From positions 1 to 27,215 of the IMG/VR virus record IMGVR_UViG_3300025674_000298: a stretch of 27,215 nt of DNA; one strand, written 5' to 3'. The notes beneath the pieces were generated by a model that was not told where the DNA came from, made no database searches, and was given only the letters and a program-made list of their open reading frames with translations. Shown piece after piece: positions 5,886 through 27,215 of this stretch. The position numbers were made by a program, and so were the translations under genes. Each line of letters starts with the position of its first letter. The stretch's first letter is position 1. This stretch comes from a virus.

Positions 5886-8800
5886 ATGTCATTGCAGTTT
5901 AAAAGAAATACACCAAGAGATTATTCTAATTTAAAAGTTCTATTTGAAGATACTTCACAAACTTCACCAAAGTTTTTCAGAGTATCAGATGTACCACAAG
6001 TTCTTACAAAAGGAAAGAACTTATTAAGAATATCTGCCCATCCATCGAACTTAGTTCCAAATTCACAAATAATTGTGGATATAAAGGATGCTAATGGCGA
6101 CCCTATTTACTTTGAAGTTCCTGATTACTTAGAACAAGATAAAAGTAGGGTAATATCTATTTGGATTTATCACGATAAAGATGATGAAAATACTGCCAAT
6201 GGAGATGCTACTATAACAATATATGGTATAGCTAGAGTTGACCAAAATGGAAAACAAGTTCCAAGTAGATACAGAGGCAAACATAATGTAAAGTGGTCTA
6301 CAACTATAAATGTTGATAGGGATAGGGAAAACATATCACCTGTAATATTTAAGGGTGATATACTCCCAACTATTTCTATTTCAGAAAGTATTGAAGCATA
6401 CCAAAATCTTCCAAGTACAGGTACAGAGTTAGAACTAACTACACAAACAGGTGGTGGTGCAAGATACATATATAAAGGTAGAACTCCAATTGTTCAATTA
6501 ACAGATGGTTCTCAATTCAATCAAGAAATGGTGGAGTATTCACTACAACTTGGAAACTTCCAAATTCCTGCAACACCTGAAACTAGATTTGAGAATCCTA
6601 CAAATATTACATCATATACATCATCCATTCTAAGGATATTGGATAATACAACCGCTGTATTACAAAATCCATTTACAACTACATTTGATGATAGAGAAGA
6701 TTTAACACATACTTTTACATCAATTGAAAGTGCAGATTATTCAATCTCATATTTTGAAACATCATCTAATATTGTAACTGAAAATCAAAGGTCATACGCA
6801 AATCTAACAATTAATAATGTAAACCCAATAAGTGGTTATCCGAATAAGTTAAGAGTCTTAATAAAATCAGATGGGTTACCTGGTGATTATGAATTATTAA
6901 ATGAGGTAACAGTTCCGTTTAGTTCTTCATTAAGTGTTAAAATACCAATTCCATCAGAACATTTGGAAGACCCAAAAAGAATTAAAGTTCAATATCTTAA
7001 TTCAGCAGGTGAGATATCAAGAACCGAAACCATTACAGAACCATATAACTTCGAAGGGGGTAACTACTACTTTGGTGGTAGAAAAAACCTTATAAGTGGT
7101 TCGATGTTTATTTCAAACACATTAGATAGTGGTATTGAGTTGGGTGGTATCTCATCTGGATTCATTCGTTCAGTTGGATTTGAAGGACAAACATCTGCTT
7201 CATTAGGAAAAGGACCAGGTGGTTTCATTATTTATTCAGGTTCGGGTAATCTTCAAGTTGGTGAAGATGTATTAAACGGAGTTGGATTACAACTAATTGG
7301 TGATAATGATGATAGACATCTTATATTCACAACTGCAGAAGGTGGTTTATTGGATGTTAAAACTGATAAATTCTTTATAGGTACAACTGGAACTCAATTT
7401 ATAAGTGGTTCGGATGGTAATATTGAAATTAGTTCATCATTATTTCACTTAGACCCTCAAAATAATTTATTAGTAATTGGGGCTGATGCAGTAATCAATG
7501 CTGATTTAACTGTTAATAATTTACGAACACCTGCAACTATAAATGGTGTACAATCAACAAGAGCAAATTCATCATCATCTATCGATTCTGATGGTTTTGC
7601 AAGATTTGTTTCTGCATCAATAGGTGGATTTGAAGTATCAGAAACTCAGATTAATTCAGCAAACGATAATCTTATATTAAAAGATAGTGGACAGATTACA
7701 GGTTCAAATGTATTATTTAGTGGTGGGAAAGTTGCAGGATTTGAAATCACAAATACTCAAATTAATTCTACAAATAATAATATTATCTTAAAAGCGAGTG
7801 GGCAACTTACCGCATCAGATGGATTCTTATTTGGTAATAAAGGTTCTGAGCAATATGTCCAATATAGTGGTGGTAACTTAGTTGTAAGAGGTGATTTGGC
7901 AGTAGACCAAATCTTTACTCCTGCAACAATTGGTGGTTCACCTTCCAATATAACAAATGCATCATCATCAATAACATCAGATGGTTTTGCTAAATTCGTA
8001 TCCGCATCAATTGGTGGTTGGGATATTAGCACAGGTTCTATTGAGGGTGGAAACCTTATAATGAAACCAGAAGGTATTCTACAGACAAGAGATTTTGCAA
8101 CAGGTGTTAAAGGTTGGAAAATATCATCTGAGGGTAATGGTACTGCTGAATTCGAAAATGTTCGAATTAGAGGTACAATGAGAACCACAACATTCGAAAA
8201 AGAATCAGTAAACGCAGTTGGTGGTCAATTATGGGTTGCTAACTCAACTACAATAACAGGCTCGGTAATTGCAAATGATGCAACGATGTCTGTTAAAAAC
8301 GCTAAAGGATTTGAAAGTGGTGAAATCCTAATTGCAAAAAAAGTAGATGGTACTGGATTTCAAACAGAATACATTTTAGTAAATTCATCATCAGTTGATG
8401 GTAATCAAAGTAATGAAGATGAAAATTATGGTAGAATTTATGTAACAAGAGGATATGGTTCAGGTTCATCAGGTGATTTCGTTGGTGATATCGCATCAAT
8501 ATCACAATCATACGAAGATGGTCAAGTCGTAGTATCCACAGGAAAAATTGGAACGGGATACATAAAATTAAACGCAAACCCATCAGATACCGCAACTCCA
8601 TTTATTGATGTAGTTGAAAGAACTGGAAGTGGGTTATACGATGTAACTCTTGCAGCAAGATTGGGTGATTTAAGTGGATTAGCAGGAACTGATTATGTAT
8701 TTGGAAATTCAACACCAGGATATGGATTGGCAACAAACAATGTATTCTTACAAGGTGGTATCAAAGCAACTTTTGGTGAGATTGGTGGTTTTGGTATAAA

Positions 8801-11800
8801 TGAAACAACTATATCATCATCAAACTCATTACTGATTTTAAGTTCATCTGGTCAAATATTTGCAGAATCAGGTAGAATTGCATCATTCATCATAACATCA
8901 TCAAAATTTGATGCATTACGATTGGTGGAAGTATTTGCACCTGTTAATAATTTAACTGCAAGTTTTGGTGATGGGGCATCAATACCAACAGAAGTTGATA
9001 ATAGAGCAACAATTACAATAACAAATGTTACGGAAAGTAATATTTCAATAACTGAGAGAGTTGATAATACAAGAGTATATTTAGATACACCATCATATTC
9101 ACTTAATGAACCATACCAAATAAATTATAGTGGTTCATTCAACTTTAATTCAGGTCAAGTAACCTTTGTTAGTGAATCTTTAAATATATCATTCCCAACC
9201 GCATCATTCGGAGCAATTACAGGTGGTTTCTTTAGAATGGATAACTTCGAAAGTGGTGAATTTACAGTATTCAACGATGGAACTGAAGGAAATTATTTAG
9301 AATCTGTAAACGGATTATACGCATTTGCAATCGAAGTTCCTGATGGTGACGGCACACCATCATTTGCATCAACAGTTAACAAATCATCGATAAACACATT
9401 TAATGGGTACTTATATTCTCCCGCTGGGTTTTCTTTAGATGATAGAGTTGGATTTTGGGAAGTAAACGGAGATGATTTAGAGTTATTTGTAAAACCAGAT
9501 TTAAGAATGATTTCATCTTTAACTGGTTCTTCAACATCAATTGTAGTATCATCATCAAATTCAAAAGACTCTATACAGACTTGGGATGTTGAAGCTGGCT
9601 CTGTTAGCTTTACATTAAAAGACACCTGGGGTGCTGGTTCATTAACGGACGGATTTAGTTCTTTAAGTAATTCACAAAACCCAACTGAAGATTTTATAAA
9701 CGCATATTGGACTGCATCATTTGTCGGTCAATATTCACCAGACCCACAATATATTTGGATTAATAGTGGTTCGGTTGATGACCAGAGAACTGGAGACCCT
9801 CTAGGTGGTGAGATTTTATATAGGTTCTTTTTAACTGCATCTAATTTAAATGCTGCAGCTCAACCAGATACATCTTTATTTGCACCTCACATAACCGCAA
9901 CAGTTTACTCAGGTCAACAAATAACACCAACTCAATACAATACAATTTCATCATCTTTCTTTGTGTATGATGACCGTGTTGCAGACCAATTCGGATTTGA
10001 AAGTGAAAATCAATTATTTTCTTTTTTCGGAGAAGGAGAAGCTGGGTCTTCTCCAACATCTTCATACGCACCTGTTAGAGGTGTATCTGAAGGTAGTGTT
10101 TTTTGGAATTCATCTCGATACAATTCAGGTGGCTCCGACCCTGAAACAGGGGTAAATTATTCAAACTCAAACTATCATGCATTATATCTACAACCAGGTT
10201 GGTTTATTAATCCATCTGTAGTATCAATTTTAAATGGTATAGATACTAATACAGGTAATGTGGATGGAAACTACCCAAATACTTGGTTAGAAATTGCTAT
10301 AAGTGGAAGTACATATATAGGTGATGGTGGAGCAATTCCAAGAACTCAACCAGGACATGGTGTTCCTTTAACATTATATAATAATAATGTTGCTACAGTA
10401 TATACACCATCAACGGAAGTTAAGTTATATAACTCAATCTGGCCATTAGATATTGCAGAAAGTGGTTCATTCCAACCCAATGATGGAACTGAATTTGGTG
10501 ATGGTGTTATATCAGCAATAGGTTCTGCAGTAAACATTACCAATAGATTAGATGCAACTAGAGTTCAAACAAGTTTAACACTATCTCAATTAGCATCATT
10601 GACAGGAAGTGGTGACCCGTATTTTGACGTTGCAAACAATAACACACTACAAGGGCCAAGACTTGGCCATTCTGTAACATACGAATCTACAAAACAATAT
10701 TCGGTAGGAACGGTATCTACTGGTTTCGAATCAGGTTCATTTGTAGAGAAAGTAACATTTAGAATTAGTGGTAGTGGTGAGGTTAGTTCTTCAAACTTTT
10801 TCTTAGATGAATTTGGAAATATTACAGGTTCCCAAGTAAACTTCTCAGGTGGTATCATCTCTGGTTCTGATTTAACTATTAACGCAAATCAATTTGAATT
10901 TAAAAACAATTTAGGTAGAGTATTTGGAGATTCTAATAACTTTATAATATCATCATCTCTTTTATCATTAGATAATAATTCATTGGAAGTTAAAGGTGAT
11001 TTAAGAGCAAGTAGTGGTTATATACAAGATACTTACTTAGGTGGTAAGATTGTAGAAACAGGTGTAAGAAACCCATCTGTAGCTGGAGTTAGATATTCAT
11101 TACCATTCTTAGAAGTTTGGACAACATCATCTACTGATAACAGATTAGGAATAGATGGTGATGATTCATCTCAAAATTTAGTAGGTTCACATGGTAATTG
11201 GGTAATTGGTGGGCCAATACAAACTATTAAACAATACTTAGTAACAGGTTCCGCATTAGATGGTGTTTCATATCCAGATGAATTTAAAAGTTGGTATGAT
11301 ATAAGTGGTATATCTAATGATTATAAATTTATTGATAATTTCAATGTATTGAATGTTTCAGATGCATCCGCATCTATATCACCATCAATAATTGGAACTC
11401 AATTAGTATTTAATTCAGCATCATTCAAACCAACGGGCTCTGCTGTAGTTTCAACAGTAACATCAGAGTTTATTAATATATCTGAATCTTTAAATAACAA
11501 TTACCGAAATACTCACTTACAATTCGCAGCAAGAGGAACTACTCACCCATATTCTGGTGGATTTACTGGGTTTTATCCACAGTATAGAGTTGATATTGTA
11601 TCAGGTTCTAAAACATTCTTTACAAAAAGGTATAAGGATGAAAATGCAACACATGAACGATGGAAAGTATTTGATATTCCAATAACCGATATTTTAACAA
11701 CTGATGCAAACGCAACTACTGATAGTAGAGTTGAAAAAGAATTCAAAGTTAAAATAAGTATGAACTATAGTGGTTCATCCGCAACAGGTACTTTAGGAAG

Positions 11801-12374
11801 TGGTGTTAATGGTATTGGATTTGCTTTAACTGAAATGAGACTGGTAGAGCCTGTTAGAATTGCTTCTATAGATACTCAAACTATTCACTTTAAAGATACT
11901 TATATAACTTGGGATGGTAAAGAAGTAACTGCTCATAAAGGACACTTTGCACCAATAATAACATCTTCTACATTTGAATCAATATCTGGTTCTGAATATT
12001 CATTAGGTAGACCTTCTCAAAGATGGAGAACGGCATACTTAAAAGATTCAGTATCAACACTTTCGGATAGAAGATTAAAATCAAATATTCAAATTTCAGA
12101 TTTAGGATTAAACTTTATTGATTCACTTAAACCTGTAAAATATAATATGGGTGATAAAAAAACTCATTATGGTTTAATTGCACAAGAAGTATCACAATCT
12201 CTTGCTGAATTTAATGTTGAAAAATTTGGTGGATATGATACAGATGGTCAATATTTAGCATTGAGATATGAAGAGTTTATATCACCTCTAATCAAAGCAG
12301 TTCAAGAACAAAGTCAAATAATAATGGAACTTCAGAGAAGAGTAGAAACTTTAGAGAGTGGTTCTAATAATTAA
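5886..12374 (+). CDS. Giant tail fibre with C-terminal S74 intramolecular chaperone
   Basis: 2162 residues. The start has a Shine-Dalgarno-like GGAG at 5877-5880. The N-terminal ~170 residues are a non-repetitive domain, probably the attachment end. The long middle is rich in Ser, Gly, Thr and Asn with beta-type repeats: a 37-residue unit at 581-617 and 618-654 (IGGFEV.., ..INS.N..(L/I)ILK.SGQ), a related copy near 966, and two copies of SSSI.SDGFA.FVSASIGG ending at 581 and 711. This pattern suits a trimeric beta-helical fibre. The last ~110 residues are a peptidase S74 domain: LSDRRLKSNI with the predicted self-cleavage before Ser2060, THYGLIAQEV, a YEEFISPLIKAVQE helix and a C-terminal coiled coil. 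In known families this domain drives trimer folding and is then released. Most likely the host-recognition fibre. Confidence 0.9.
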   Translation: MSLQFKRNTPRDYSNLKVLFEDTSQTSPKFFRVSDVPQVLTKGKNLLRISAHPSNLVPNSQIIVDIKDANGDPIYFEVPDYLEQDKSRVISIWIYHDKDDENTANGDATITIYGIARVDQNGKQVPSRYRGKHNVKWSTTINVDRDRENISPVIFKGDILPTISISESIEAYQNLPSTGTELELTTQTGGGARYIYKGRTPIVQLTDGSQFNQEMVEYSLQLGNFQIPATPETRFENPTNITSYTSSILRILDNTTAVLQNPFTTTFDDREDLTHTFTSIESADYSISYFETSSNIVTENQRSYANLTINNVNPISGYPNKLRVLIKSDGLPGDYELLNEVTVPFSSSLSVKIPIPSEHLEDPKRIKVQYLNSAGEISRTETITEPYNFEGGNYYFGGRKNLISGSMFISNTLDSGIELGGISSGFIRSVGFEGQTSASLGKGPGGFIIYSGSGNLQVGEDVLNGVGLQLIGDNDDRHLIFTTAEGGLLDVKTDKFFIGTTGTQFISGSDGNIEISSSLFHLDPQNNLLVIGADAVINADLTVNNLRTPATINGVQSTRANSSSSIDSDGFARFVSASIGGFEVSETQINSANDNLILKDSGQITGSNVLFSGGKVAGFEITNTQINSTNNNIILKASGQLTASDGFLFGNKGSEQYVQYSGGNLVVRGDLAVDQIFTPATIGGSPSNITNASSSITSDGFAKFVSASIGGWDISTGSIEGGNLIMKPEGILQTRDFATGVKGWKISSEGNGTAEFENVRIRGTMRTTTFEKESVNAVGGQLWVANSTTITGSVIANDATMSVKNAKGFESGEILIAKKVDGTGFQTEYILVNSSSVDGNQSNEDENYGRIYVTRGYGSGSSGDFVGDIASISQSYEDGQVVVSTGKIGTGYIKLNANPSDTATPFIDVVERTGSGLYDVTLAARLGDLSGLAGTDYVFGNSTPGYGLATNNVFLQGGIKATFGEIGGFGINETTISSSNSLLILSSSGQIFAESGRIASFIITSSKFDALRLVEVFAPVNNLTASFGDGASIPTEVDNRATITITNVTESNISITERVDNTRVYLDTPSYSLNEPYQINYSGSFNFNSGQVTFVSESLNISFPTASFGAITGGFFRMDNFESGEFTVFNDGTEGNYLESVNGLYAFAIEVPDGDGTPSFASTVNKSSINTFNGYLYSPAGFSLDDRVGFWEVNGDDLELFVKPDLRMISSLTGSSTSIVVSSSNSKDSIQTWDVEAGSVSFTLKDTWGAGSLTDGFSSLSNSQNPTEDFINAYWTASFVGQYSPDPQYIWINSGSVDDQRTGDPLGGEILYRFFLTASNLNAAAQPDTSLFAPHITATVYSGQQITPTQYNTISSSFFVYDDRVADQFGFESENQLFSFFGEGEAGSSPTSSYAPVRGVSEGSVFWNSSRYNSGGSDPETGVNYSNSNYHALYLQPGWFINPSVVSILNGIDTNTGNVDGNYPNTWLEIAISGSTYIGDGGAIPRTQPGHGVPLTLYNNNVATVYTPSTEVKLYNSIWPLDIAESGSFQPNDGTEFGDGVISAIGSAVNITNRLDATRVQTSLTLSQLASLTGSGDPYFDVANNNTLQGPRLGHSVTYESTKQYSVGTVSTGFESGSFVEKVTFRISGSGEVSSSNFFLDEFGNITGSQVNFSGGIISGSDLTINANQFEFKNNLGRVFGDSNNFIISSSLLSLDNNSLEVKGDLRASSGYIQDTYLGGKIVETGVRNPSVAGVRYSLPFLEVWTTSSTDNRLGIDGDDSSQNLVGSHGNWVIGGPIQTIKQYLVTGSALDGVSYPDEFKSWYDISGISNDYKFIDNFNVLNVSDASASISPSIIGTQLVFNSASFKPTGSAVVSTVTSEFINISESLNNNYRNTHLQFAARGTTHPYSGGFTGFYPQYRVDIVSGSKTFFTKRYKDENATHERWKVFDIPITDILTTDANATTDSRVEKEFKVKISMNYSGSSATGTLGSGVNGIGFALTEMRLVEPVRIASIDTQTIHFKDTYITWDGKEVTAHKGHFAPIITSSTFESISGSEYSLGRPSQRWRTAYLKDSVSTLSDRRLKSNIQISDLGLNFIDSLKPVKYNMGDKKTHYGLIAQEVSQSLAEFNVEKFGGYDTDGQYLALRYEEFISPLIKAVQEQSQIIMELQRRVETLESGSNN
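7626..7847 (+). repeat. Tandem 111-base repeat inside the tail fibre
   Basis: Two adjacent 37-codon units begin at 7626 and 7737. They share GGFEV/GFEIT, TQINS.N.N(L/I)ILK.SGQ(I/L)T.S at the protein level and are diverged at the DNA level. A looser third copy begins near 8783. They look like structural coils of a beta-helix rather than mobile DNA. Confidence 0.7.
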
Positions 12375-12389: not shown

Positions 12390-15002
12390 ATGGGAAATTT
12401 AATCAAAGAATGGGTTAAAGGAATTTTAACCGAAGATATCAATAAAAAGGTAGTAGTTTACGCAGGTAGATTTCAACCATTTCACAAAGGACATTATGCA
12501 ACTTATTCTCATTTGGTAAAACAATTTGGGAAAGATAATGTTTATATTGGAACATCAGATAAAACAGATAATATCAAATCACCTTTTAAATTCAAAGAAA
12601 AGAAAGTGATTATGATGAAAATGTTTGGTATTCCATCAGATAAAATTATTCAGATTAAAAACCCATATGCACCAACAGAAATCATTGGTAAGTTTCCCGA
12701 AGAATCAACTGCATTCATAACAGTAGTTGGTGAAAAAGATAGATACAGATTAAAAGGTAAATATTTTGAACCATATCATCCTGATAGAGTTGAGAGTGGA
12801 TACAAAGATAAAGGGTATGTGTATGTAGCACCCGCTCAATCAAATCCAATTAGTGGAACTGATGTTAGAAATTGGTTATCCAAAGGTTCAGAAGAACAAA
12901 GAAAAAGTGGATTCAAAAAAGCATACGGAAAGTTTGACCCAAAAATCTTTAAATTGGTTAGTGATAAGTTGTTTAAGATTGAATCTAAAATGGAACGATT
13001 CATTAACTCATTTGATATGAACGATATTATTAAAGAGGCAAGTATGTATTATGCAGACCCAGGAGAACCTGAAACTGGATATCTTCCTGGTGGATACACA
13101 CGAAAATTGGGAACTAATTCTGGAAAACCTGAACCTTGGTTTAATAAAGGTGGGTATACGCAAATGCATTTTCCAAAAGCAGATTACATTTACTCAAAAG
13201 ATTCAGTTAATTCGGATAAGGCCGCATTTTCAGTTATAAAACGAGTAGAACCTAACAAGGCATTAAAAGAACCAATTGAAACGGATGATTATGTTACATC
13301 TGGTATTGGTTCTAAAGGTACTGATTTATCAAAAATCTCAGAAGCATCTCAAAATTCATCAATTGGAAAATCATTAGTAGATGATGGGCCTGGATTTACA
13401 TATGGTAACTCAAAAACATACAAAAAAGTTGGTGAAGATGTTGCTCAAATGTTGGGTTGGCAAGTAGTTGATTATATCTTAGGTAGTGATGAAGATTCAA
13501 TTTATGCAGATGATGCTAGAGGCTTGGAAGATAAATACCCAGTATCATATTTCCCATCTGGTAAAGCAGGTTTGGATGCACAATCACAAAGATATACTGA
13601 TTTAAAAGGTTCAAATGCATATAAAGCTTGGGCTGATAAAATCAAAGGAGTTGCAACTTTAGTTGGATACAAACTAATAGATTTCTTAGATGCTGAAGAA
13701 GCTAAAACAAATAATCCAGATGAACCAACTAAAGAAGAATCTCCAAACTTTACTATTGATTCCGAAACTGAACCTCTAAAAGAAGGTTTGATTATGGAAG
13801 GTGGTGCATACGGACATATGAATCACCCATTTGATGTTGAAATGAATCTTACATTTGGAGATTTAAAAGCAATCATCAAAGGAGCATTAAATGGTAACTT
13901 AGAATTAGCAAGAGAAAAGACAGATGGACAAGCACTTGCTATTTCTTGGAGAGATGATAGAGGGTTAATCGCAGCAAGAAACAAATCACATCTTAAAAAT
14001 AAAGGTGCTGAAGCACTTACTATTAAAGGAGTAGCTGATAAGTTTGCAAACAGAGGTGGATTAACCGATGCTTACAATTTCGCAATGAAAGATTTGGAAT
14101 CTGCAATCAAAGGTTTATCAAAAGCTCAAAGAGATAAGATATTCCAACAAGGTGCATCATTTATGAACTTAGAGGTAATTTATCCAACATCAGTAAATGT
14201 TATTCCTTACGACCAACCACTTTTAGTATTCCATAATACAACTGAATACAATGAAAAAGGTGAGGGAATTGGTGCAAATCAATCTGCTGCAAGAATCTTA
14301 GCAGGTATGATTAAACAAATCAACAAAGATGTTCAAGACAACTATACAATTCAAGGACCACCGGTAACTGAATTACCAAAATCACAAAAGTTATCAGCTC
14401 AACAATCTAAATTTGAATCAATGTTGAAAAAACTACAAAGTGAATTTAAATTAAAAGATTCAGATGGTGTTGCTGATTACCATCAAGCTTGGTGGGAACA
14501 ATGGGTTGATAAAAATTCACCAGAAACTTTAACCAACAAAGAAAAAATGGGATTGGTAAAGAGATGGGCATTTTATGATAAAGGATTTAGATTGGATAAC
14601 AAAAACATTGAATCAGATAAAGTATTACAATGGGCTAAAAAAGTAGATAAACAAGACCAAGCTAAAATATCAAAAGAAAACACTATGAAATTCGAAGAGA
14701 TATTCTTAGGTGTTGGTGCAGAAGTTTTATCATTTATGAGTTCAGTTCTTGCAGCTAATCCTGATAAGGCAGTTAGAGATATGAAAAAAGAATTGGATAA
14801 CACAATTAAAGCAGTACAAAAATCAGGTGACCCTAAAAAGATTGAAAAACTAAGATTGGAATTAGAGAGATTAGCAAGATTGGGTGGTAAAGAAAAGATT
14901 GTACCAAATGAGGGTATTGTATTTGTTTACAAAGGAAACACATATAAATTAACAGGTGCATTCGCTCCATTGAATCAAATCTTAGGTTTAATGTATTTTT
15001 AA
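12390..15002 (+). CDS. NMN-adenylyltransferase-like plus ATP-dependent-ligase-like fusion protein
   Basis: 870 residues. Residues ~19-200 form a nucleotidyltransferase with the NMNAT/NadR-type motifs GRFQPFHKGH (26-35, HxGH at 32-35) and ISGTDVR (154-160), which bind ATP and would make NAD from NMN. Residues ~470-870 carry the order of motifs of the covalent nucleotidyltransferase (DNA/RNA ligase, capping) superfamily: EKTDGQ with candidate nucleotidyl-lysine Lys510 (motif I), MNLEVIYP (III), LLVFHN (IIIa), then after a long helical insertion NEGIVFVYKG with Glu841 (IV) and YKLTG with Lys853 (V). The middle (220-460) is of unknown function. Peptides that fit a prohead-protease site occur at LTE15, IIKE216/A, ISE318/A, LKE465/G and IME470/G, between the domains. 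Both enzyme assignments rest on motifs; substrates are unknown. Confidence 0.75.
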   Translation: MGNLIKEWVKGILTEDINKKVVVYAGRFQPFHKGHYATYSHLVKQFGKDNVYIGTSDKTDNIKSPFKFKEKKVIMMKMFGIPSDKIIQIKNPYAPTEIIGKFPEESTAFITVVGEKDRYRLKGKYFEPYHPDRVESGYKDKGYVYVAPAQSNPISGTDVRNWLSKGSEEQRKSGFKKAYGKFDPKIFKLVSDKLFKIESKMERFINSFDMNDIIKEASMYYADPGEPETGYLPGGYTRKLGTNSGKPEPWFNKGGYTQMHFPKADYIYSKDSVNSDKAAFSVIKRVEPNKALKEPIETDDYVTSGIGSKGTDLSKISEASQNSSIGKSLVDDGPGFTYGNSKTYKKVGEDVAQMLGWQVVDYILGSDEDSIYADDARGLEDKYPVSYFPSGKAGLDAQSQRYTDLKGSNAYKAWADKIKGVATLVGYKLIDFLDAEEAKTNNPDEPTKEESPNFTIDSETEPLKEGLIMEGGAYGHMNHPFDVEMNLTFGDLKAIIKGALNGNLELAREKTDGQALAISWRDDRGLIAARNKSHLKNKGAEALTIKGVADKFANRGGLTDAYNFAMKDLESAIKGLSKAQRDKIFQQGASFMNLEVIYPTSVNVIPYDQPLLVFHNTTEYNEKGEGIGANQSAARILAGMIKQINKDVQDNYTIQGPPVTELPKSQKLSAQQSKFESMLKKLQSEFKLKDSDGVADYHQAWWEQWVDKNSPETLTNKEKMGLVKRWAFYDKGFRLDNKNIESDKVLQWAKKVDKQDQAKISKENTMKFEEIFLGVGAEVLSFMSSVLAANPDKAVRDMKKELDNTIKAVQKSGDPKKIEKLRLELERLARLGGKEKIVPNEGIVFVYKGNTYKLTGAFAPLNQILGLMYF

Positions 15003-16566: not shown

Positions 16567-16854
16567 ATGAAAATTGATATTAAATCAGGTGGGCAAAAGT
16601 ATTCGGTAGATTTCCAAATCGGACCAGGTAGAGGTGATATCCACTTTACAGCAATGGCAAAATCATCAAAGGATTTAGATGAATTACAAACGGCAATTGT
16701 TAACAGAGGTGGTAACGACCAAACCATTGGTGCCATTATTGCAAAAGCAATTGAGAATAAATTGAAACTACCAATTGATGTTGATTATGGATATCAAGGT
16801 GCAGGATACGGATTTAAATTAGATTTATATTCTATTTCTAAAAAATTAAAGTAA
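16567..16854 (+). CDS. Small hypothetical protein
   Basis: 95 residues, mixed alpha/beta, no cysteine, no membrane segment. No family recognised. A beta-rich N-terminal half (SGGQKYSVDFQIGPGRGDIHF) is followed by a helix with TIGAIIAKAIENKL and a beta tail with GYQGAGYGFKLDL. It begins 2 bases after the previous stop and ends 9 bases before the modular protein gene, so it belongs to the same transcription unit. No protease-site motif is visible, unlike most neighbours. Confidence 0.65.
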   Translation: MKIDIKSGGQKYSVDFQIGPGRGDIHFTAMAKSSKDLDELQTAIVNRGGNDQTIGAIIAKAIENKLKLPIDVDYGYQGAGYGFKLDLYSISKKLK

Positions 16855-16863
16855 GGAAACTCA

Positions 16864-18615
16864 ATGATAAAATTAAAAGAATTACTAAACGAAGCAGTAA
16901 ACGAAGTATCTTTCAGACCAAACCCAGGTACTATGAGTGGTGGTTCATATGAGTTAGATAAAAGAAAGTATGAATTAAAAACAGATGTTAAAGGTGTAAG
17001 AATTGGTGATTATACAAATGTAACATTACCTAAAGGAACTATTATATATAACTTACCAGGTGGAGTATTTGCACACCATCCTTCATTAAAAAGATATGAA
17101 GCTGGAATGAGGAAATATTTTAATACACCCACATTCAGAGGAATATCAATTACAAGAGAAAAAAATGTTATTCTTTCAATAGAAAAAAATTCTAAGATAT
17201 TAGAATCAGTAGATAAATCTAAATTAAAAAAGGTTTATGATAATCTCAATAAAGGTGATGAGGTTACAATAAAATATGGTTCATCAATTAGTAGAAATAA
17301 TGAAGTAACTTTTATTGTAAAAAAAGGTAAAACCACAGTAGGTAAATCTAGAGTTGAAAGAATTACATTAGTAAATAAAGCAAATCCAAAAGGTGTTAAG
17401 TATTACCTATATAATCGAAATGGTAATGTATCATTAGCAATTGGTGATATGGCTGCTACAATTGATGATATTCAGATGAACGAATCAGTAAACGAAGCCA
17501 AAGATATGGCATTTGTTGATTATCTTAAAGTGTTAGATGCTAAGTTTTTAGATGGTATGAAAGCTGTTCGTGGAGACAATGGAAGTGATGCTCAAATTAA
17601 ACCAACAAGAGGTGATATACTACAAAACTTCACCCTATTCAGAAATTACTTATCTGCTTTAACTAAGAAATATAAAGGTGATAAGACTAAACTTAGATTT
17701 CTAACAGAACGAGCTAATAGATTAAATGAAATAATAAAATTAGTAAACGAAGTAATTAAAAATGGTGATGTTATCATTTTTAAAAAATCTAAAGGTGAAG
17801 TACCTAAGATTAAATATAACTCATACTCAAAGCAATTTGCAGCAGATTTCATATCACATACGGATTATTATAAAAACCTAAAAGATGCCATTACAGATAT
17901 GAAAAACGCAGGATTTGTGATTGATAAATACATACAAACCGAATCAGTAAACGAAGGTATTGAACCACAAATCAAAAAGATTGCATACTACACAGGTACA
18001 AGACCCGAAGCAGTTGAAGATTTCGTTTCTAAACATGGATTGAATATTACTAAACTTCTTAAATTTGTTGAAAAGGGTAAACTTCCAGAAAGAATGGCAA
18101 TTGTATCAGCATTAGCGGGTAACCCAGGAAATCCAGTTCAAAAGAAAATAATCAAACAATTCTCAGAATCAGTAAACGAAGAATCATATAAAGTTGCAGG
18201 TAAACCCGTTACCTTAATTAAGGGTAAAAAATCAAATGGAACTGATTGGAAAGTAAAATTTCAAAATGGTAAAGAAACTTCATTATCAGATGTATTATCA
18301 TTAATTAAACCATTTCCAAAAGGTATTAAAGAATCAGTAAACGAAGCAAATGGGACTTACTTTAAAGCCGCATATGAAGCAGCTGAATACGCAAAGGAAA
18401 TGGCTGAGAAAAAGGGGTTTGAGATTGATGAAGATGATTGGCAAACTCAAATTGGAATGGGTGGTAAACACAATCGTTTAAGACCGGGTGTTGGTAAAAC
18501 ACATTCATTCTCAGTTGGATTAACAAAGAATGGTAAACCACAAAGAAAAGCATTAAACATATCACTATATGGAATGGATAGTGGAAGCTACGAATTAACA
18601 TACTATATAAACTAA
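16864..18615 (+). CDS. Modular putative internal/head polyprotein with ESVNE linkers
   Basis: 583 residues. It begins MIKLKELLNE/A, which matches in length and cut position the capsid-targeting peptide of T4 internal proteins (MKTYQEFIAE/A, cut after Glu10). A second site follows at AVNE14. Four further copies of ESVNE lie at 207-211, 360-364, 435-439 and 490-494, followed by A, G, E and A. They divide the protein into modules of about 197, 153, 75, 55 and 89 residues that show no obvious similarity to each other. Module 4 (KVAGKPVTLIKGKK..) looks like a small SH3-like barrel, module 3 is helical, and modules 1, 2 and 5 are unassigned. A Shine-Dalgarno-like AAGGAA precedes the start. Inferred role: head-packaged cargo cut by gp21; no enzymatic motif was seen. 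Confidence 0.75.
   Translation: MIKLKELLNEAVNEVSFRPNPGTMSGGSYELDKRKYELKTDVKGVRIGDYTNVTLPKGTIIYNLPGGVFAHHPSLKRYEAGMRKYFNTPTFRGISITREKNVILSIEKNSKILESVDKSKLKKVYDNLNKGDEVTIKYGSSISRNNEVTFIVKKGKTTVGKSRVERITLVNKANPKGVKYYLYNRNGNVSLAIGDMAATIDDIQMNESVNEAKDMAFVDYLKVLDAKFLDGMKAVRGDNGSDAQIKPTRGDILQNFTLFRNYLSALTKKYKGDKTKLRFLTERANRLNEIIKLVNEVIKNGDVIIFKKSKGEVPKIKYNSYSKQFAADFISHTDYYKNLKDAITDMKNAGFVIDKYIQTESVNEGIEPQIKKIAYYTGTRPEAVEDFVSKHGLNITKLLKFVEKGKLPERMAIVSALAGNPGNPVQKKIIKQFSESVNEESYKVAGKPVTLIKGKKSNGTDWKVKFQNGKETSLSDVLSLIKPFPKGIKESVNEANGTYFKAAYEAAEYAKEMAEKKGFEIDEDDWQTQIGMGGKHNRLRPGVGKTHSFSVGLTKNGKPQRKALNISLYGMDSGSYELTYYIN
16891..16906 (+). repeat. Dispersed 16-base repeat, copy 1 (one mismatch)
   Basis: GAAGCAGTAAACGAAG, coding E-A-V-N-E, differs by one base from GAATCAGTAAACGAAG found five more times downstream. 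In the same reading frame as the others. Confidence 0.85.
17482..17498 (+). repeat. Dispersed 16-base repeat, copy 2
   Basis: GAATCAGTAAACGAAG plus C, coding ESVNEA at a module border of the modular protein. Confidence 0.95.
17941..17957 (+). repeat. Dispersed 16-base repeat, copy 3
   Basis: GAATCAGTAAACGAAG plus G, coding ESVNEG at a module border. Confidence 0.95.
18166..18181 (+). repeat. Dispersed 16-base repeat, copy 4
   Basis: GAATCAGTAAACGAAG, coding ESVNE followed by another Glu. Confidence 0.95.
18331..18347 (+). repeat. Dispersed 16-base repeat, copy 5
   Basis: GAATCAGTAAACGAAG plus C, coding ESVNEA before the last module. Confidence 0.95.
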
Positions 18616-18624
18616 GGATAGATT

Positions 18625-19857
18625 ATGAATTTAAATGAATGGATAAACACTTATATAAATGAAATTTCAGAGGATGAAAAAGACCCGCAAGAAATCACAG
18701 TAGGTAACTATCAAACAAGATACTTTCATGTTTGTCCAGGTGCATCAACTCTATACAAAGATATAGAATCAAAAGGTGTTGATATGGATATGGCCGAAAG
18801 AAGTGCAAGATTACAAGATGCACTTTATTTCGTAGAAGAACACATTCAAAGAGATGGGTATGAGCCTGATAAAGATTATGTAATGGTTGCTAATAACATC
18901 GCTAAAAACATTATGAAGATGGCTAAACTGATGGGATTGGAAGAAGAACACAATTACATACAAGGACACGTTGATACAATTGAAAAGGTTGTAAAAGAAA
19001 AAGGTTTAGAAGAATCGATTATGAACCTTACTGAAAAAAATACACCAACTGACCCATCAAAATGGGCTTACTATAAAGCTCAAGCAAAGAAGAAATTCGA
19101 TGTATATCCATCAGCATACGCAAATGGATGGGCTGCTAAAAAATACAAAGCTGCAGGTGGTGGTTGGAGAAAATCAGAATCAGTAAACGAAGCAACTCCA
19201 GAAGAAGAGGATGAATTCCACAGAAATTTAGATAAGTTAGTTCATAAAACATTCGGACACAGTTCTGATGAAGAAAAAATGAATGAAGCTAATGAACCAG
19301 ATATAATTTCACAATTAAGAGATATCGTTTCAAAAAAACAAAATCAAAAACTAAAAGACCCAAAAAGTGGTAAAAAGATGAGAGTTGATTTATACTCAGC
19401 ATCAGCAGTTACTCAAGTGTATGATGCACTAAAACAACAATCAAATAAAGATAAGTTTGTTGGTATGGGTTTAGTTGGTATGGTTAATATGGCATTTAAA
19501 TTGATTAATAAACAAGAAATAGTTGAGTATGATGTTGAAACATTAGAAGAACTAAACGATTTCCATCAGTTTATGAAAGAATACAAAGCAGATATTAACG
19601 AAGCAGAATACCAAGGTAGAAAAGTAGAACTTGGTAAGATTATGCAAGGTGATGTTAAGAAATTTAAAGTTTATGTTAAGAACGATAAAGGTAATGTTGT
19701 TAAAGTAAACTTTGGACAAGGTGGTGATGCTAAAGGTGGTACGATGAGAATTCGTAAAGATAATCCTGAGGCAAGGAAGTCATTTAGAGCAAGACATAAT
19801 TGTGATAATCCTGGTCCAAGATGGAAAGCGAGATATTGGTCTTGTAGAAAATGGTAA
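18625..19857 (+). CDS. Second modular putative internal/head protein
   Basis: 410 residues with an AAGGA Shine-Dalgarno at the stop of the previous gene. Modules, split at Glu-Ala motifs: 1-133 after a YINE13 leader (contains YFHVCPGASTLYKDI), 134-189 (WAYYKAQAKKKFDVYPSAYANGWAAKKYKA), ESVNE189/A, a short acidic linker to KMNE221/A, a 105-residue helical module, DINE326/A and a C-terminal basic module ending RARHNCDNPGPRWKARYW then SCRKW. I remember the second and last modules as recurring in many uncultured phage proteins in different combinations, without known function. The ESVNEA copy shares its DNA sequence with the repeats of the preceding gene. Inferred to be protease-processed, head-associated cargo like its neighbour; no catalytic motif seen. 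Confidence 0.75.
   Translation: MNLNEWINTYINEISEDEKDPQEITVGNYQTRYFHVCPGASTLYKDIESKGVDMDMAERSARLQDALYFVEEHIQRDGYEPDKDYVMVANNIAKNIMKMAKLMGLEEEHNYIQGHVDTIEKVVKEKGLEESIMNLTEKNTPTDPSKWAYYKAQAKKKFDVYPSAYANGWAAKKYKAAGGGWRKSESVNEATPEEEDEFHRNLDKLVHKTFGHSSDEEKMNEANEPDIISQLRDIVSKKQNQKLKDPKSGKKMRVDLYSASAVTQVYDALKQQSNKDKFVGMGLVGMVNMAFKLINKQEIVEYDVETLEELNDFHQFMKEYKADINEAEYQGRKVELGKIMQGDVKKFKVYVKNDKGNVVKVNFGQGGDAKGGTMRIRKDNPEARKSFRARHNCDNPGPRWKARYWSCRKW
19177..19193 (+). repeat. Dispersed 16-base repeat, copy 6
   Basis: GAATCAGTAAACGAAG plus C, coding ESVNEA, in a different gene from copies 1-5 and again at a module border. Confidence 0.95.
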
Positions 19858-20973: not shown

Positions 20974-22545
20974 ATGAGCAAATCAATAAAAGAACTTATA
21001 AGGGAAGAGTACATAAAATGTGCTAAAGACCCTGTTTACTTTTTCAAAAAGTATTGTTACATCCAACACCCAAAACGTGGTAAAATCTTATTCGACCTTT
21101 TTGAATTTCAAGAAGATGTTATGGATGAATTTGATAAACACAGATTCAATGTAATTCTTAAATCACGTCAGTTAGGTATCTCAACATTATCCGCAGGTTA
21201 TTCATTATGGATGATGTTATTCCACGAAGATAAAAACATATTGGTAATTGCAACCAAACAAGAGGTAGCTAAAAACTTAGTTACTAAGGTAAGATATATG
21301 CATGAGAACTTACCATCTTGGTTAAGGGGTGAAACTGAAGAAGATAACAAACTATCACTTAGGTTAGGTAACGGTTCAACAATTAAAGCAACATCAGCAA
21401 GTGGTGATGCAGGTCGTTCCGAAGCTTTATCAATGTTGATTATCGATGAGGCTGCTTTTATCAAAGGTATTGATTCAATTTGGGCATCTGCACAATCAAC
21501 TCTATCAACAGGTGGAAAAGCAATTGTATTATCAACTCCAAATGGTGTTGGTAACTTCTTTCATAAGACTTGGTTAAAGGGTGAAGAGGGTGATGGTTGG
21601 AATCCAATCAAACTTCATTGGACAGTACATCCAGAACGAAACCAAAAGTGGAGATTAGAACAAACTCAATTGTTAGGTGAAAAGATGGCAGCACAAGAAT
21701 GTGATTGTGATTTCATTTCATCTGGTTATACAGTAGTTGATGGACAACTTCTACAATGGTTTGAAGAAACTCATATTCAAGAACCAGTTGAGAAAAGAGG
21801 ATTTGATGGTAACTATTGGATATGGTCACAGCCAAATTATTCAAAAGATTATATTGTAGTAGCGGATGTCGCAAGAGGTGATGGAGCAGATTACTCAGCA
21901 TTTCACGTCATAGATGTAGAAAATGTAGAACAGGTTGCAGAATACAGAGGTAAGATTGAAACCAAACATTATGGTAATATGTTGGTGAATGTAGCAACTG
22001 AATGGAACGATGCTCTATTAGTGATTGAAAACGCAAATATTGGGTGGGCAGTAATTCAAGAAGCAATTGATAGAAATTATTCAAACTTATATTATTCCTA
22101 CAAAGAGTTTGGATATGTAGATGATGATATTCATTTACAAAAAGGATATGATTTAAAAGATAAATCTCAGATGGTACCTGGTTTCTCAATGACGAGTAGG
22201 ACTCGACCTTTGGTTATATCTAAATTAGATACATATATGAGAGAGAGAGTTCCAATCATCCGTTCTAAGAGGTTAATAGATGAGCTATTCGTATTTATAT
22301 GGAATGGTAGTAGAGCTGAAGCACAGCAGGGTTATAATGATGACTTAGTGATTTCATTCTCAACATCTTTGTGGGTAAGAGATACCGCATTAAAACTAAG
22401 ACAGCAAGGTATTGAATTAAACAGAAAAGCACTTTCTCTAACCTCTAAAAATTCAGGTGTATTCAAAACAACACCACAAGTTGCTAAGAATGCATGGAAG
22501 ATGAATACTGGCAGAGGTGATGAAGATATCCGTTGGTTATTGTAA
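20974..22545 (+). CDS. 17: Terminase large subunit, T4 gp17-like
   Basis: 523 residues (T4 gp17 is 610). Packaging motor that cuts concatemeric DNA and pumps it into the prohead through the portal. ATPase: Walker A KSRQLGIST (63-71), Walker B MLIIDEAAF with Asp158-Glu159, coupling motif LSTPNG (186-191). The T4 motif SRQLGKTT has its lysine inside; here that position is Ile69 and the likely catalytic lysine is Lys63 at the front, the lambda-type arrangement. Nuclease domain of RNase H fold: VVADVARGDGADYS with Asp298, LLVIENANIG with Glu352, and YNDDLVIS with Asp456/457. The small subunit gene (16) is not next to it in this window. Start context GAGTTATG, 3 bases after the previous stop. Confidence 0.97.
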   Translation: MSKSIKELIREEYIKCAKDPVYFFKKYCYIQHPKRGKILFDLFEFQEDVMDEFDKHRFNVILKSRQLGISTLSAGYSLWMMLFHEDKNILVIATKQEVAKNLVTKVRYMHENLPSWLRGETEEDNKLSLRLGNGSTIKATSASGDAGRSEALSMLIIDEAAFIKGIDSIWASAQSTLSTGGKAIVLSTPNGVGNFFHKTWLKGEEGDGWNPIKLHWTVHPERNQKWRLEQTQLLGEKMAAQECDCDFISSGYTVVDGQLLQWFEETHIQEPVEKRGFDGNYWIWSQPNYSKDYIVVADVARGDGADYSAFHVIDVENVEQVAEYRGKIETKHYGNMLVNVATEWNDALLVIENANIGWAVIQEAIDRNYSNLYYSYKEFGYVDDDIHLQKGYDLKDKSQMVPGFSMTSRTRPLVISKLDTYMRERVPIIRSKRLIDELFVFIWNGSRAEAQQGYNDDLVISFSTSLWVRDTALKLRQQGIELNRKALSLTSKNSGVFKTTPQVAKNAWKMNTGRGDEDIRWLL

Positions 22546-24552: not shown

Positions 24553-25401
24553 ATGACAAAATTAAAACATAGTAAGTATAAAAATACAGGAATTCTGTTT
24601 GAACTATTGGTTAGACAGATTGCAACGGATACTTTAAACAATAGAGATTCGAAAGCAACCAACATAATCAAAGAATTCTTTGGAAAAAAGACAGAATTGG
24701 CAAAAGAACTAAGATTATATCAATCTATGATAAAAGAATCGTTCAATTCAGAGTATAAAGCAAGTGAATTTGTTAATATTATACTTAAAGAGCGTTCAAA
24801 ATTAAGTGAATCTACCTTAAACAGACAAAAATACAACTTAATCAAAGAAATTAAGAAAAATTTTGTGTTAGAAGACTTCTTTAATTACAGAGTAACCAAC
24901 TATAAAGAGAACGCATCGGTGTATAAGTTGTTTGAACACAAAAATTCAGATAATCCAAAGGAATATGTAGAGTGTAAATCAACTTTAATGGAACATTTGA
25001 CAGGAAAATCACAAAATTCCGATAAAATTGTATCTACTATCAATGAAGAATACACAAAACAACCAAAAGAAGTTAGATTATTAGCATGGAAGATGTTAAT
25101 AGAGAACTTTAACAACAAATACACCAATTTATCTGATAAGCAACAAAATATTCTTAAAGAATACATCAATTCGGTTGATAACTCTGAAAAATTAAAGAAT
25201 TTTGTGGTTAGAGAGTGTAATTTACTCACTAAAAACATAAAATCAGTAAAAATCACCGATAAAGTAACTGAAATCAAAGTAAATGAGGTTGTTAAACTTA
25301 TTTCTAAGTTAAAATCATCAAAAGTGATAACAGAATCACAAATTCTTTCACTTTTACGTTATAACGAACTATATTCTGAATTAAAGAAGGCATTTAAATG
25401 A
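24553..25401 (+). CDS. Helical protein between portal and prohead protease (head/core candidate)
   Basis: 282 residues, almost wholly alpha-helical and rich in Lys, Glu, Asn and Leu; three Cys, no membrane segment. It begins MTKLKHSKYKNTGILFELLVRQIATDTL, a block I remember from T4-like marine phages at the same place. T4 has the small prohead core genes 67 and 68 between 20 and 21; this gene and the next occupy that place but are not recognisably similar to them. A core or scaffold role is therefore positional inference. A good Shine-Dalgarno (AAGGAAG) lies about 5 bases before the start, and the stop overlaps the next start by 4 bases. Confidence 0.75.
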   Translation: MTKLKHSKYKNTGILFELLVRQIATDTLNNRDSKATNIIKEFFGKKTELAKELRLYQSMIKESFNSEYKASEFVNIILKERSKLSESTLNRQKYNLIKEIKKNFVLEDFFNYRVTNYKENASVYKLFEHKNSDNPKEYVECKSTLMEHLTGKSQNSDKIVSTINEEYTKQPKEVRLLAWKMLIENFNNKYTNLSDKQQNILKEYINSVDNSEKLKNFVVRECNLLTKNIKSVKITDKVTEIKVNEVVKLISKLKSSKVITESQILSLLRYNELYSELKKAFK

Positions 25402-25886
25402 AAAGTTTCTTAAAAGAGATAGAAGATAAGTTTGAAGAAATAGAAGAAGCTAATGTAACTGCTAATTTAGATGGTGGGGCAGGACCTCCCCGTACTCCAA
25501 ATGCATTTTCTAAATCAAAAGATGAAGAAGATTTAGATGATGACCATATTGAAGTATTGGGTTACAAAAAATCTAAAAAAACCAACAAACACTTCAGAGC
25601 AATGGAATCTTTAGAGCGTAAGTTGGAAGAAAAGATAAATGAGATATCATACAAAGAATATAAGAAAGATGATAGTAGAAAAGATTACCAAAAGGTAAAT
25701 GATTCTATAAAGAAAATCAATCGTATGATGTATGAGATGGAAAGAATCGTAAATCAAAACGCTAAGTTAAAAAACGAAGCAGGAGTTCATACAGGACAAT
25801 ATTGGAAATCTACACAAAAAAGATTTGGAAAAATTTCTGAAAGAATGTTGAAAGTCGCTCAAAGGTTAAAAGAGTTGAGTGTATGA
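25398..25886 (+). CDS. Head/core-associated protein with EEANVTANLDGG motif
   Basis: 162 residues. A helical acidic leader ending IEE17/ANV is followed by TANLDGGAGPPRTPNAF, then a charged region and a long helix to the C-terminus (ERKLEEKINEI ... ISERMLKVAQRLKEL). The ANVTANLDGG.GPP.TP block is known to me from marine T4-like phages at this position. I-E-E/A fits a prohead-protease site, so the mature form may begin at Ala18. Position 20-x-this-21 suggests a prohead core protein in place of T4 gp67/gp68. It overlaps both neighbours by 4 bases (ATGA). Confidence 0.75.
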   Translation: MKSFLKEIEDKFEEIEEANVTANLDGGAGPPRTPNAFSKSKDEEDLDDDHIEVLGYKKSKKTNKHFRAMESLERKLEEKINEISYKEYKKDDSRKDYQKVNDSIKKINRMMYEMERIVNQNAKLKNEAGVHTGQYWKSTQKRFGKISERMLKVAQRLKELSV

Positions 25887-26020
25887 GTTCTAAAAAGAAA
25901 CATATCATTAAGGAAGAACTTACTAATAAGGATTTGGAAGATATCAGATTACTTATTAGATATGAAGTTGCACAGATTATGTTCGATTTATATAGAAAAC
26001 GTAAAGTGTGGGATAAATAA
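25883..26020 (+). CDS. 45-residue protein between core gene and prohead protease
   Basis: ATG at 25883 overlaps the previous stop (ATGA) and its TAA at 26018-26020 shares a base with the protease ATG (TAATG). The 45-residue product starts MSSKKKHIIKEELTNKDLED, is basic and helical, and ends RKRKVWDK. It fills exactly the gap between two genes with coupling overlaps on both sides, which argues that it is translated. No family recognised. Confidence 0.65.
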   Translation: MSSKKKHIIKEELTNKDLEDIRLLIRYEVAQIMFDLYRKRKVWDK

Positions 26021-26637
26021 TGAGTAGATTATTAATAGATACTATACCATTTTCAATGAGTCCATCTCAAATCAATGAATCATTAAAACAAAATAATGGT
26101 AGATTGATTGTTGAGGGGGTACTTCAACGTGCAGAAGCAGAAAATCAAAATGGTAGAATCTATCCAACTGAAATTCTCAGACGAGAAGTAAAAAAATATA
26201 TGGGTAGAGAAGTAAAAGAAAATAGAGCATTTGGTGAATTAGACCATCCAGAATCATCAGTAGTTGAACTGAAAAACACATCACATATTATAAGAGATGT
26301 TTGGTGGGATGGTAAAGATGTTATGGGAAAAGTAGAAATCCTAAAAACACCAGCAGGAAACATTCTTAAAGAATTAATAGAAGCGGGTTGTACAGTTGGT
26401 ATTTCATCAAGAGGTATGGGTTCTGTTAAAGAATCATCAAATGGTAGAACTGTAACGGTGGAAGACGATTTTGATTTGATATGTTGGGACTTCGTTTCGA
26501 ACCCATCAACACATGGGGCATTTATGAAACCTGTAAATGAATCTGTATCATCTAAACCAATTAAATCATATAAAAAAATCAATACATTAGTAAGAGATAT
26601 CATCTGCGAAATCGATGGTGTTTGTTCAATAGGATAA
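26020..26637 (+). CDS. 21: Prohead core protease, T4 gp21-like
   Basis: 205 residues (T4 gp21 is 212). Serine protease of the herpesvirus-like assembly protease fold that cleaves scaffold, capsid and internal proteins during head maturation. Seen: NGRIYPTEILRREVKKY, FGELDHPESS with catalytic His76, and VGISSRGMGSV containing the nucleophile serine (129 or 130), then WDFVSNPS. In T4 the pair is His85 and Ser140. Two peptides within it resemble its own target rule: SQINE20/S near the N-terminus and PVNE174/SVSS after the catalytic domain; the latter could be a maturation cut. Follows the 45-residue gene with a one-base overlap. Confidence 0.95.
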   Translation: MSRLLIDTIPFSMSPSQINESLKQNNGRLIVEGVLQRAEAENQNGRIYPTEILRREVKKYMGREVKENRAFGELDHPESSVVELKNTSHIIRDVWWDGKDVMGKVEILKTPAGNILKELIEAGCTVGISSRGMGSVKESSNGRTVTVEDDFDLICWDFVSNPSTHGAFMKPVNESVSSKPIKSYKKINTLVRDIICEIDGVCSIG

Positions 26638-26641
26638 CATT

Positions 26642-27215
26642 ATGAAAAAACTAAAAGATATTTTAAAAGAATCAAATGTTCAGATTGGAAAAGTTTACTC
26701 TAATCCTTACGCAAAATCATTTGTAAAGGAAGAGGAAGAAGAAAGACCACAAGCTGAAGAATTAACAACTGAACAAAAACATGCATTCTTAGAAGCAGTT
26801 AAACAATTCAAAAAGTATGGCGAAGCTGTTTACAGAAACGCAGGTTTAGGTGAAGTTTACGAATCAATCAAAAATATGGTTGAAATGGCAGGTAAAGTAA
26901 CCATTTCTGAAACTGATGATTGGTTTGATAATGTAACTGTTAGTAGACATATGAAAAGAATGGGTGAATCTTTTAAAGTATTTGAAAAAACACTCAAAGA
27001 AGTATCAACACTACAACAAAGATTAGAAGCATCTTACGATGAGATTGGTGAAGTTCTTGGTAAGTATTACGAAATCAATGAAAAAGAAGAAGTGGAAGAG
27101 GGAAATGAATTCGGAGCAGCAAGAGCAAAAGCAATCGCAAATGGTGATGATTCATTTGAAGTAGATGGTAAGAAATATCCAGTAAAAGATGTGGATAAGG
27201 ATGACAAGGAGAACG
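26642..27215 (+). CDS. Prohead/scaffold-region protein, 3' partial
   Basis: 191 residues visible; the frame is open at the right edge. It begins 4 bases after the protease stop, where T4 has the scaffold gene 22, but I see no specific gp22 signature. The start MKKLKDILKE/S resembles the T4 internal-protein targeting peptide with a possible cut after Glu10. The rest is acidic and helical (EEEEERPQAEE, LKEVSTLQQRLEASYDEIGEVL), with DDWFDNVTVSRHMKRM in the middle and NEFGAARAKAIANGDDSF, then EVDGKKYPV near the visible end. I recall the latter blocks from virion proteins of large marine phages. Scaffold or internal core role is inferred from place and composition. Confidence 0.75.
   Translation, partial: MKKLKDILKESNVQIGKVYSNPYAKSFVKEEEEERPQAEELTTEQKHAFLEAVKQFKKYGEAVYRNAGLGEVYESIKNMVEMAGKVTISETDDWFDNVTVSRHMKRMGESFKVFEKTLKEVSTLQQRLEASYDEIGEVLGKYYEINEKEEVEEGNEFGAARAKAIANGDDSFEVDGKKYPVKDVDKDDKEN

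Follow-up and report, generated by a model that had tools for sequence, protein, structure and literature searches.

A shuffled modular protein with a fixed in-frame DNA linker as a probable prohead-core polyprotein of T4-type phages

Why would one phage protein spell the same five residues four times with the same DNA, each time between stretches of unlike sequence? The window, by which we mean the whole 27,215-nucleotide stretch of IMG/VR record IMGVR_UViG_3300025674_000298 analysed here, encodes on its plus strand, at 16864..18615, a 583-aa protein of pI 9.6, P0001, whose N-terminal start is MIKLKELLNEA. As a preliminary description of the locus had claimed, this leader-like start and four copies of ESVNE are all present: linker 1 at aa 207-211 (17482..17496, GAATCAGTAAACGAA), linker 2 at aa 360-364 (17941..17955), linker 3 at aa 435-439 (18166..18180) and linker 4 at aa 490-494 (18331..18345), the last three being exact copies of the 15-mer of the first. 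ESVNE is the sole pentapeptide of P0001 with three or more copies; composition predicts 0.0008 copies against the four observed (Poisson P(≥4) ~1.5e-14), and 20,000 composition shuffles never gave more than one. All four copies being encoded by the one 15-mer, GAATCAGTAAACGAA, we counted it in the whole window and found five exact copies and two with one mismatch, against none in dinucleotide-preserving shuffles. The fifth exact copy (19177..19191, plus strand, GAATCAGTAAACGAA) is the single exact ESVNE linker of a second module protein of 410 aa, the next ORF after P0001 (18625..19857, plus strand). One of the mismatched copies, EAVNE (aa 10-14, 16891-16905, GAAGCAGTAAACGAA), closes the P0001 leader; the copy at 8202-8216 (ESVNA), within a tail-fibre ORF, is probably there by chance.

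What lies between the linkers is modular. Module borders were set by BLAST of each block against all loci and by inspection of the edges, and contexts were counted as distinct ones, the window itself included. Five separate folds had been proposed between the ESVNE sites; the modularity holds, but the BLAST contexts raise the count to about seven. The first block comprises two modules, since each is found elsewhere without the other: the basic M1a (aa 15-112, 16906..17199; five contexts, without M1b in L149, L163 and L086) and the basic, beta-rich domain M1b (aa 117-206, 17212..17481; ten contexts). Between them is a degraded junction, LESV (aa 113-116, 17200..17211, with ILE|S at 114), which is replaced by ESVNE where the two modules part in the relatives L149, L004 and L086. 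The second block probably also represents two modules, M2a (aa 212-292, 17497..17739) and M2b (aa 297-359, 17752..17940), on either side of a probable degraded junction, LVNE (aa 293-296, 17740..17751), at which L001 reads KSVNE and then continues with different sequence. This split is the least certain one, because M2a, whose boundary with M2b is less certain, has the single relative L001, and M2b, which we placed by its two borders, found no relative in BLAST against all loci. The remaining blocks are the helical, basic M3 (aa 365-434, 17956..18165; 37 contexts), the small, basic beta domain M4 (aa 440-489, 18181..18330; five contexts) and M5 (aa 495-583, 18346..18612; 24 contexts), which is also found as a free gene and, in L007, within core2. 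The search for modules with different partners that had been called for thus succeeded for M1a, M1b, M3, M4 and M5. It can be best illustrated by M4, which recurs at 92-100% identity in four other proteins with different flanking modules in each, the left border being ESVNE in all four and the right one ESVNE, ESINE or ESAIGE. Cultured relatives include Flavobacterium phage vB_FspM_immuto, whose protein YP_010114604.1 contains ESVNE|GRVLKG and ESLNE|DDYLQP, and Methylophilales phage Melnitz, in which relatives of M1b and M5 share one protein with hydrophobic-D-E ahead of each. The pI of six of the seven modules is 9.4-10.0 and that of M5 is 8.2; if cuts fall at the junctions, the predicted products would be of ~5-11 kDa and mostly basic, as the small basic products of T4-type cargo are.

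Structure prediction gives a similar picture for most of the protein. AlphaFold2 was run on registered alignments (A5 and A6); MAFFT of all fragments together (A1 and A4) had misregistered the modules. The pLDDT is ~93 for M3, ~95 for M5 and mostly 50-70 for M4, and falls below 50 at 345-364, 436-441 and 481-496, with a pTM of 0.26, that is, domains without a fixed mutual arrangement. In the N-terminal model M1b is mostly at ~72-91, residues 208-215 are below 50 and M1a is without a resolved fold. The proposal that ESVNE lies between folds therefore fits the models at linkers 2, 3 and 4, which are placed in low-confidence coil, and is less clear at linker 1, where the model begins a helix. Neither model had a match in the PDB at E ≤ 0.001 with Foldseek, searches of P0001 against Pfam and PHROGs gave sub-threshold matches alone (Big_8, E 0.0026; phrog_14178, E 0.043), and the 73 module proteins scanned had almost no annotated Pfam domain. 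By eye, the first module of L013-L015 (L014:4754-5600) has the look of an ADP-ribosyltransferase (R, STS-like, ExE), as has an ORF of Microcystis phage Mel-JY01 in the interval between a core2-like ORF and gp23 (L061:21392-22558); Pfam and PDB searches were negative. T4 Alt is an injected ADP-ribosyltransferase.

The linker behaves as a fixed DNA word at which homology breaks. In 36 IMG/VR relatives and at least 120 further stretches, the in-frame 15-mer links dozens of unrelated, shuffled modules, for the most part in the vicinity of T4-type head genes. Of 821 internal homology ends in 36 non-redundant linker proteins, 53% fall within 10 residues of a linker versus 14% at random (maximum 17.5% in 500 trials); these ends, like the junction counts below, are not all independent events, yet their excess at linkers is large. 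The 15-mer is identical in 50 of 79 non-redundant linker sites, with a codon choice of GTA in 77/79 (background 0.47) and AAC in 59/79 (background 0.35); conservation spans the 15 bases and a preferred following G and then ends, and the linker flanks share no sequence. Copies with no more than one mismatch number 131 over the window, the 36 relatives, the two near-complete genomes and a further four reference stretches, and all of them are read in the ESVNE-type frame within the longest open frame. A scan of IMG/VR with the pattern GAATCAGTAAACGAAGS reached at least 120 stretches, and among the matches listed 154 of 160 copies are in frame and 114 share their ORF with at least one other linker; a T4-type head gene is present in 87 of the 120 stretches listed out of this total of at least 120. 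Four out-of-frame matches of the 17-mer, in L080, L092, L111 and L137, fall in one gene family (MQSYSVTVESDIG...) and are probably due to chance. It would be tempting to explain the uniformity by concerted evolution of the linkers of each protein, but we rejected this idea: 15-mer identity is 0.54 within proteins and 0.53 between proteins, in a comparison set that was partly selected by the 15-mer itself, and this equality points to a word common to a pool rather than homogenized gene by gene. Cleavage alone does not explain conservation at the DNA level, which suggests that the linker is a recombination seam too.

The residues encoded by the word also read as a cut site. T4 gp21 cuts after L/I-X-E, as first shown on gp22 at a Glu-Ala bond (PMC9026906). 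The ORF at 26020..26637 (plus strand), which had been named as gp21, matches Pfam Peptidase_S77 (E 3.7e-37) and has GELxHP and SSRGxGS blocks in common with T4 gp21, so that a prohead protease, presumably the cutting enzyme, is encoded by the same phage. The left edge of M5 is [VILM]-x-E in all 24 contexts whatever precedes it, the variants including LLNE|S, LLKE|A, LLQE|S, LLME|A, MSE|A, VTE|A, QLNE|A, INE and ESVNE|A, and hydrophobic-x-Glu stands at the junction in 24 of 28 right edges of M3, compared with a background of 7% in 12-aa stretches drawn at random outside the linker regions (scored with a slightly narrower pattern). The motif is kept at junctions even where the linker DNA differs, which a recombination seam alone does not predict. 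Within P0001, each [VILM]xE whose next residue is A, G or S belongs to the leader or a junction; five further [VILM]xE sites lie inside modules with a larger residue next, and folding would need to protect them. Valine at P3 departs from the published T4 L/I-X-E rule. However, T4 gp23 has a 65-residue propeptide ending FLTE|A, and the capsid-protein sites of six related phages, assigned by alignment with T4 gp23, read LVSE|A, IVKE|A, LISE|A, IVSE|A, LVKE|A and LLDE|A, so that the P3 Val of ESVNE|A is nothing unusual for this lineage. Judged by sequence, V/L/I-x-E at the leader and junctions of P0001 fits the rule of the enzyme. The cytidylyltransferase-like protein of 870 aa at 12390-15002 contains IKE|A at 216, ISE|A at 318 and LKE|G at 465, and with three such sites it may be a further processed protein.

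The leader (aa 1-14, MIKLKELLNE-AVNE, 16864..16905, plus strand) resembles a capsid-targeting helix. In T4 such leaders have 10-19 aa, and an Asp at position 10 prevents processing of the T4 leader (PMC9026906); that of P0001 appears to conform to the T4 type in being ~10-19 residues long and ending in hydrophobic-x-Glu. It offers two such ends, LLNE|A and EAVNE|V (encoded by GAAGCAGTAAACGAA), and because it runs into the linker-like EAVNE the first cut might come after either E10 or E14. The same type of leader is directly fused to M5 as a free gene (MIKLK[EQ]LLNE|SDY) in G001, L022, L023 and L030; the free M5 gene of G001 reads MIKLKQLLNE|S plus M5 and is at the matching genomic place. Immediately upstream of P0001 in the window is a free 95-aa gene (16567..16854, plus strand) with 40-42% BLASTP identity to the C-terminal module of module proteins of L022, L023, L030 and G001. 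Core2 has a similar leader, reading MKNLKELLNE|S in G001 and MKKLKDILKE|S in the window, and so does the capsid protein with MNTNSLLNE|S. Leader-like N-termini occur in 4/17 head-block ORFs versus 1/206 elsewhere in G001 (p 1e-4) and in 3/18 versus 1/218 in G002 (p 1e-3). In several other module proteins no leader is evident. The N-terminus of the terminase large subunit (20974-21018, MSKSIKELIREEYIK) also resembles the pattern, yet terminase is not an internal head protein, and the pattern is therefore unspecific on its own.

The genomic context is that of head genes. In relatives the genes run in the order cytidylyltransferase, a conserved ORF, a WDRY ORF, the free module gene, module proteins, terminase, portal, core0, core1, gp21, core2, gp22 and gp23, for comparison with 20-67-68-21-22-23 in T4. 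In the window (plus strand), core0, a conserved ORF of the portal-to-gp21 interval (24553..25401), takes the place of T4 genes 67/68 by position only; core1, the ORF before gp21, is at 25398..25886, a place where L010, L020 and L026 have module insertions; and core2, the ORF after gp21 (26642..27215), ends at the window edge and has modules in L007, L023 and G001. L007 has M5 within core2 though its terminase is 89% identical to that of the window, and in G002 ESVNE is at the C-terminus of gp21 itself. With genome-level ORF calls, the head blocks of G001 and G002, ~5,400 aa each, contain four and three ESVNE sites, respectively, whereas there is none outside the head block in ~50,500 aa (G001) and ~45,900 aa (G002); one extra ESVNE of G002 is in a 59-aa ORF kept by locus-level calling alone. 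Elsewhere in the window, an ORF at 1287-1709 belongs to the phage endonuclease I family (T7-type resolvase family; Pfam E 3.8e-55), here on a contig with T4-type head genes; a 1057-aa ORF at 2687-5860 combines Metallophos (calcineurin-like phosphoesterase, aa 15-202) with an SMC-type AAA_23 and is apparently a gp47/gp46 (SbcD/SbcC) fusion, with a similar 1056-aa ORF in G002 at 166062-169232; and 5886-12374 encodes a 2162-aa tail-fibre-like protein with a C-terminal Peptidase_S74 intramolecular chaperone domain.

We suggest, with a probability of roughly 0.75 and on the strength of sequence comparison, that P0001 is a T4-type prohead-core polyprotein that is recruited by its leader and cut by gp21 at the junctions, with the linker doubling as an exchange seam. 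P0001 had been proposed to be a leader-targeted polyprotein cut by gp21 into five products. That it is modular, head-associated and gp21-cleavable is strongly supported by comparison, namely by the linker breakpoints, the junction rule, the aligned capsid site, the modules in core proteins and the leader-M5 gene; the number five did not survive. We infer the following course for targeting, cleavage, packaging, retention, injection and recombination. The leader MIKLKELLNE would bring P0001 into the assembling prohead core. Because the linkers end in a gp21-type cut sequence, it is probable that the modules are taken into the head in one piece and separated there: gp21 would cleave after Glu at LLNE|A or VNE|V in the leader, at the four ESVNE| and at the two degraded junctions, removing the leader and freeing in the head about seven small, mostly basic proteins (5-11 kDa), of which some may be injected. 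The linker would also act as a seam for module exchange between genes, as its nearly fixed DNA could allow modules to recombine in frame through it.

Other readings share parts of this evidence. One is that gp21 does cut the chain, yet the modules are core filler like the fragments of T4 gp22 and gp67 and mostly leave the head. T4 core fragments are mostly removed once cleaved (PMC9026906), and some relatives carry modules inserted into the core proteins themselves; the modules, however, are compact, mostly basic, diverse and exchanged between phages, as would be expected of internal cargo, and we regard filler as rather doubtful. If the linker is instead a recombination seam only, these are uncut multidomain head proteins in which a 15-bp patch merely happens to encode ESVNE. 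This would account for a 15-mer that is conserved beyond codon usage (GTA 77/79, 50/79 identical) and stops at its ends bar the following G, and for homology breaks that coincide with linkers. It would not account for hydrophobic-x-Glu being retained with other DNA (LLKE|A, LLQE|S, LLME|A, IIRE|A, VTE|A), for the confinement of the word to the ESVNE frame, or for its match to the lineage's own aligned capsid-protein maturation site, and we consider it unlikely.

The modules could also be joined for another reason, such as an early intracellular function or cutting by a host protease, with the head context being incidental. The module block is upstream of terminase and beside the cytidylyltransferase gene, not solely among head genes, and 33 of the 120 stretches listed from the total of at least 120 have no T4-type head marker in the fetched DNA. 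Against this are the modules in core2 and in the pre-gp21 ORF, the one leader type shared by core2, the capsid protein and the free M5 gene, and the lack of ESVNE beyond the head block of G001 and G002 in genome-level calls, which make this idea very improbable. A chance or low-complexity repeat has a negligible claim, being ruled out by a Poisson P of ~1e-14, by unrelated modules with unlike flanks and by in-frame occurrence on more than 100 contigs.

Each component of the proposed polyprotein has a known counterpart. T4 internal proteins are basic proteins of ~8-20 kDa, several of which are ejected into the host (PMC9026906). P0001 resembles IPI, IPII, IPIII and Alt of T4 in its short hydrophobic-x-Glu leader, small basic predicted products, T4-type head with a Peptidase_S77 protease and cargo that varies between relatives (PMC9026906), but those have one protein per leader, whereas here about seven linker-joined, gene-swapping modules follow a single one; P0001 would thus work like T4 internal proteins, yet be no ordinary member of them. 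With T4 gp22, gp67 and gp68 it shares several predicted gp21 cuts per chain and the gene neighbourhood of core proteins; their pieces are mostly discarded, whereas the pieces here are separate folds that also occur alone. In SPN3US (gp245) and phiKZ (gp175) the prohead protease likewise acts on many head proteins, and the propeptides of several contain more than one site, but the extra sites there clear propeptides, and these accounts describe no module-by-module polyprotein (PMC10052503, PMC9026906). Domains are also shuffled between phage proteins in general mosaicism (PMC10684548), an account whose text never has the words linker, protease or polyprotein; here a 15-bp in-frame word stands at the seams. 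A literature search covering few subscription journals found no description of such a linker-joined polyprotein, the matches listed in a text search for ESVNE or the 15-mer were all unrelated, and no virion proteomics was located for phages immuto or Melnitz. The leader, gp21 cutting, varying internal proteins and mosaic phage proteins are already known, while what appears to be new is a polyprotein whose parts are joined by a single fixed in-frame DNA linker.

We see the chances as evenly balanced that, beyond this locus, a widespread group of aquatic T4-type phages has an open-ended cargo system of interchangeable mini-protein modules, in-frame cassettes in which the 15-bp word at either border is at once homologous-recombination seam and cut site of the prohead protease, so that any module placed between two words would automatically be packaged and then set free in the head. 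If true, many different small proteins would be packaged per leader with swapping built in, and the rules of leader, linker and module border would flag virion cargo among hypothetical proteins. It would also provide a natural multi-cargo design for the loading of phage heads, and the long-open function of T4-type internal proteins would become testable module by module.
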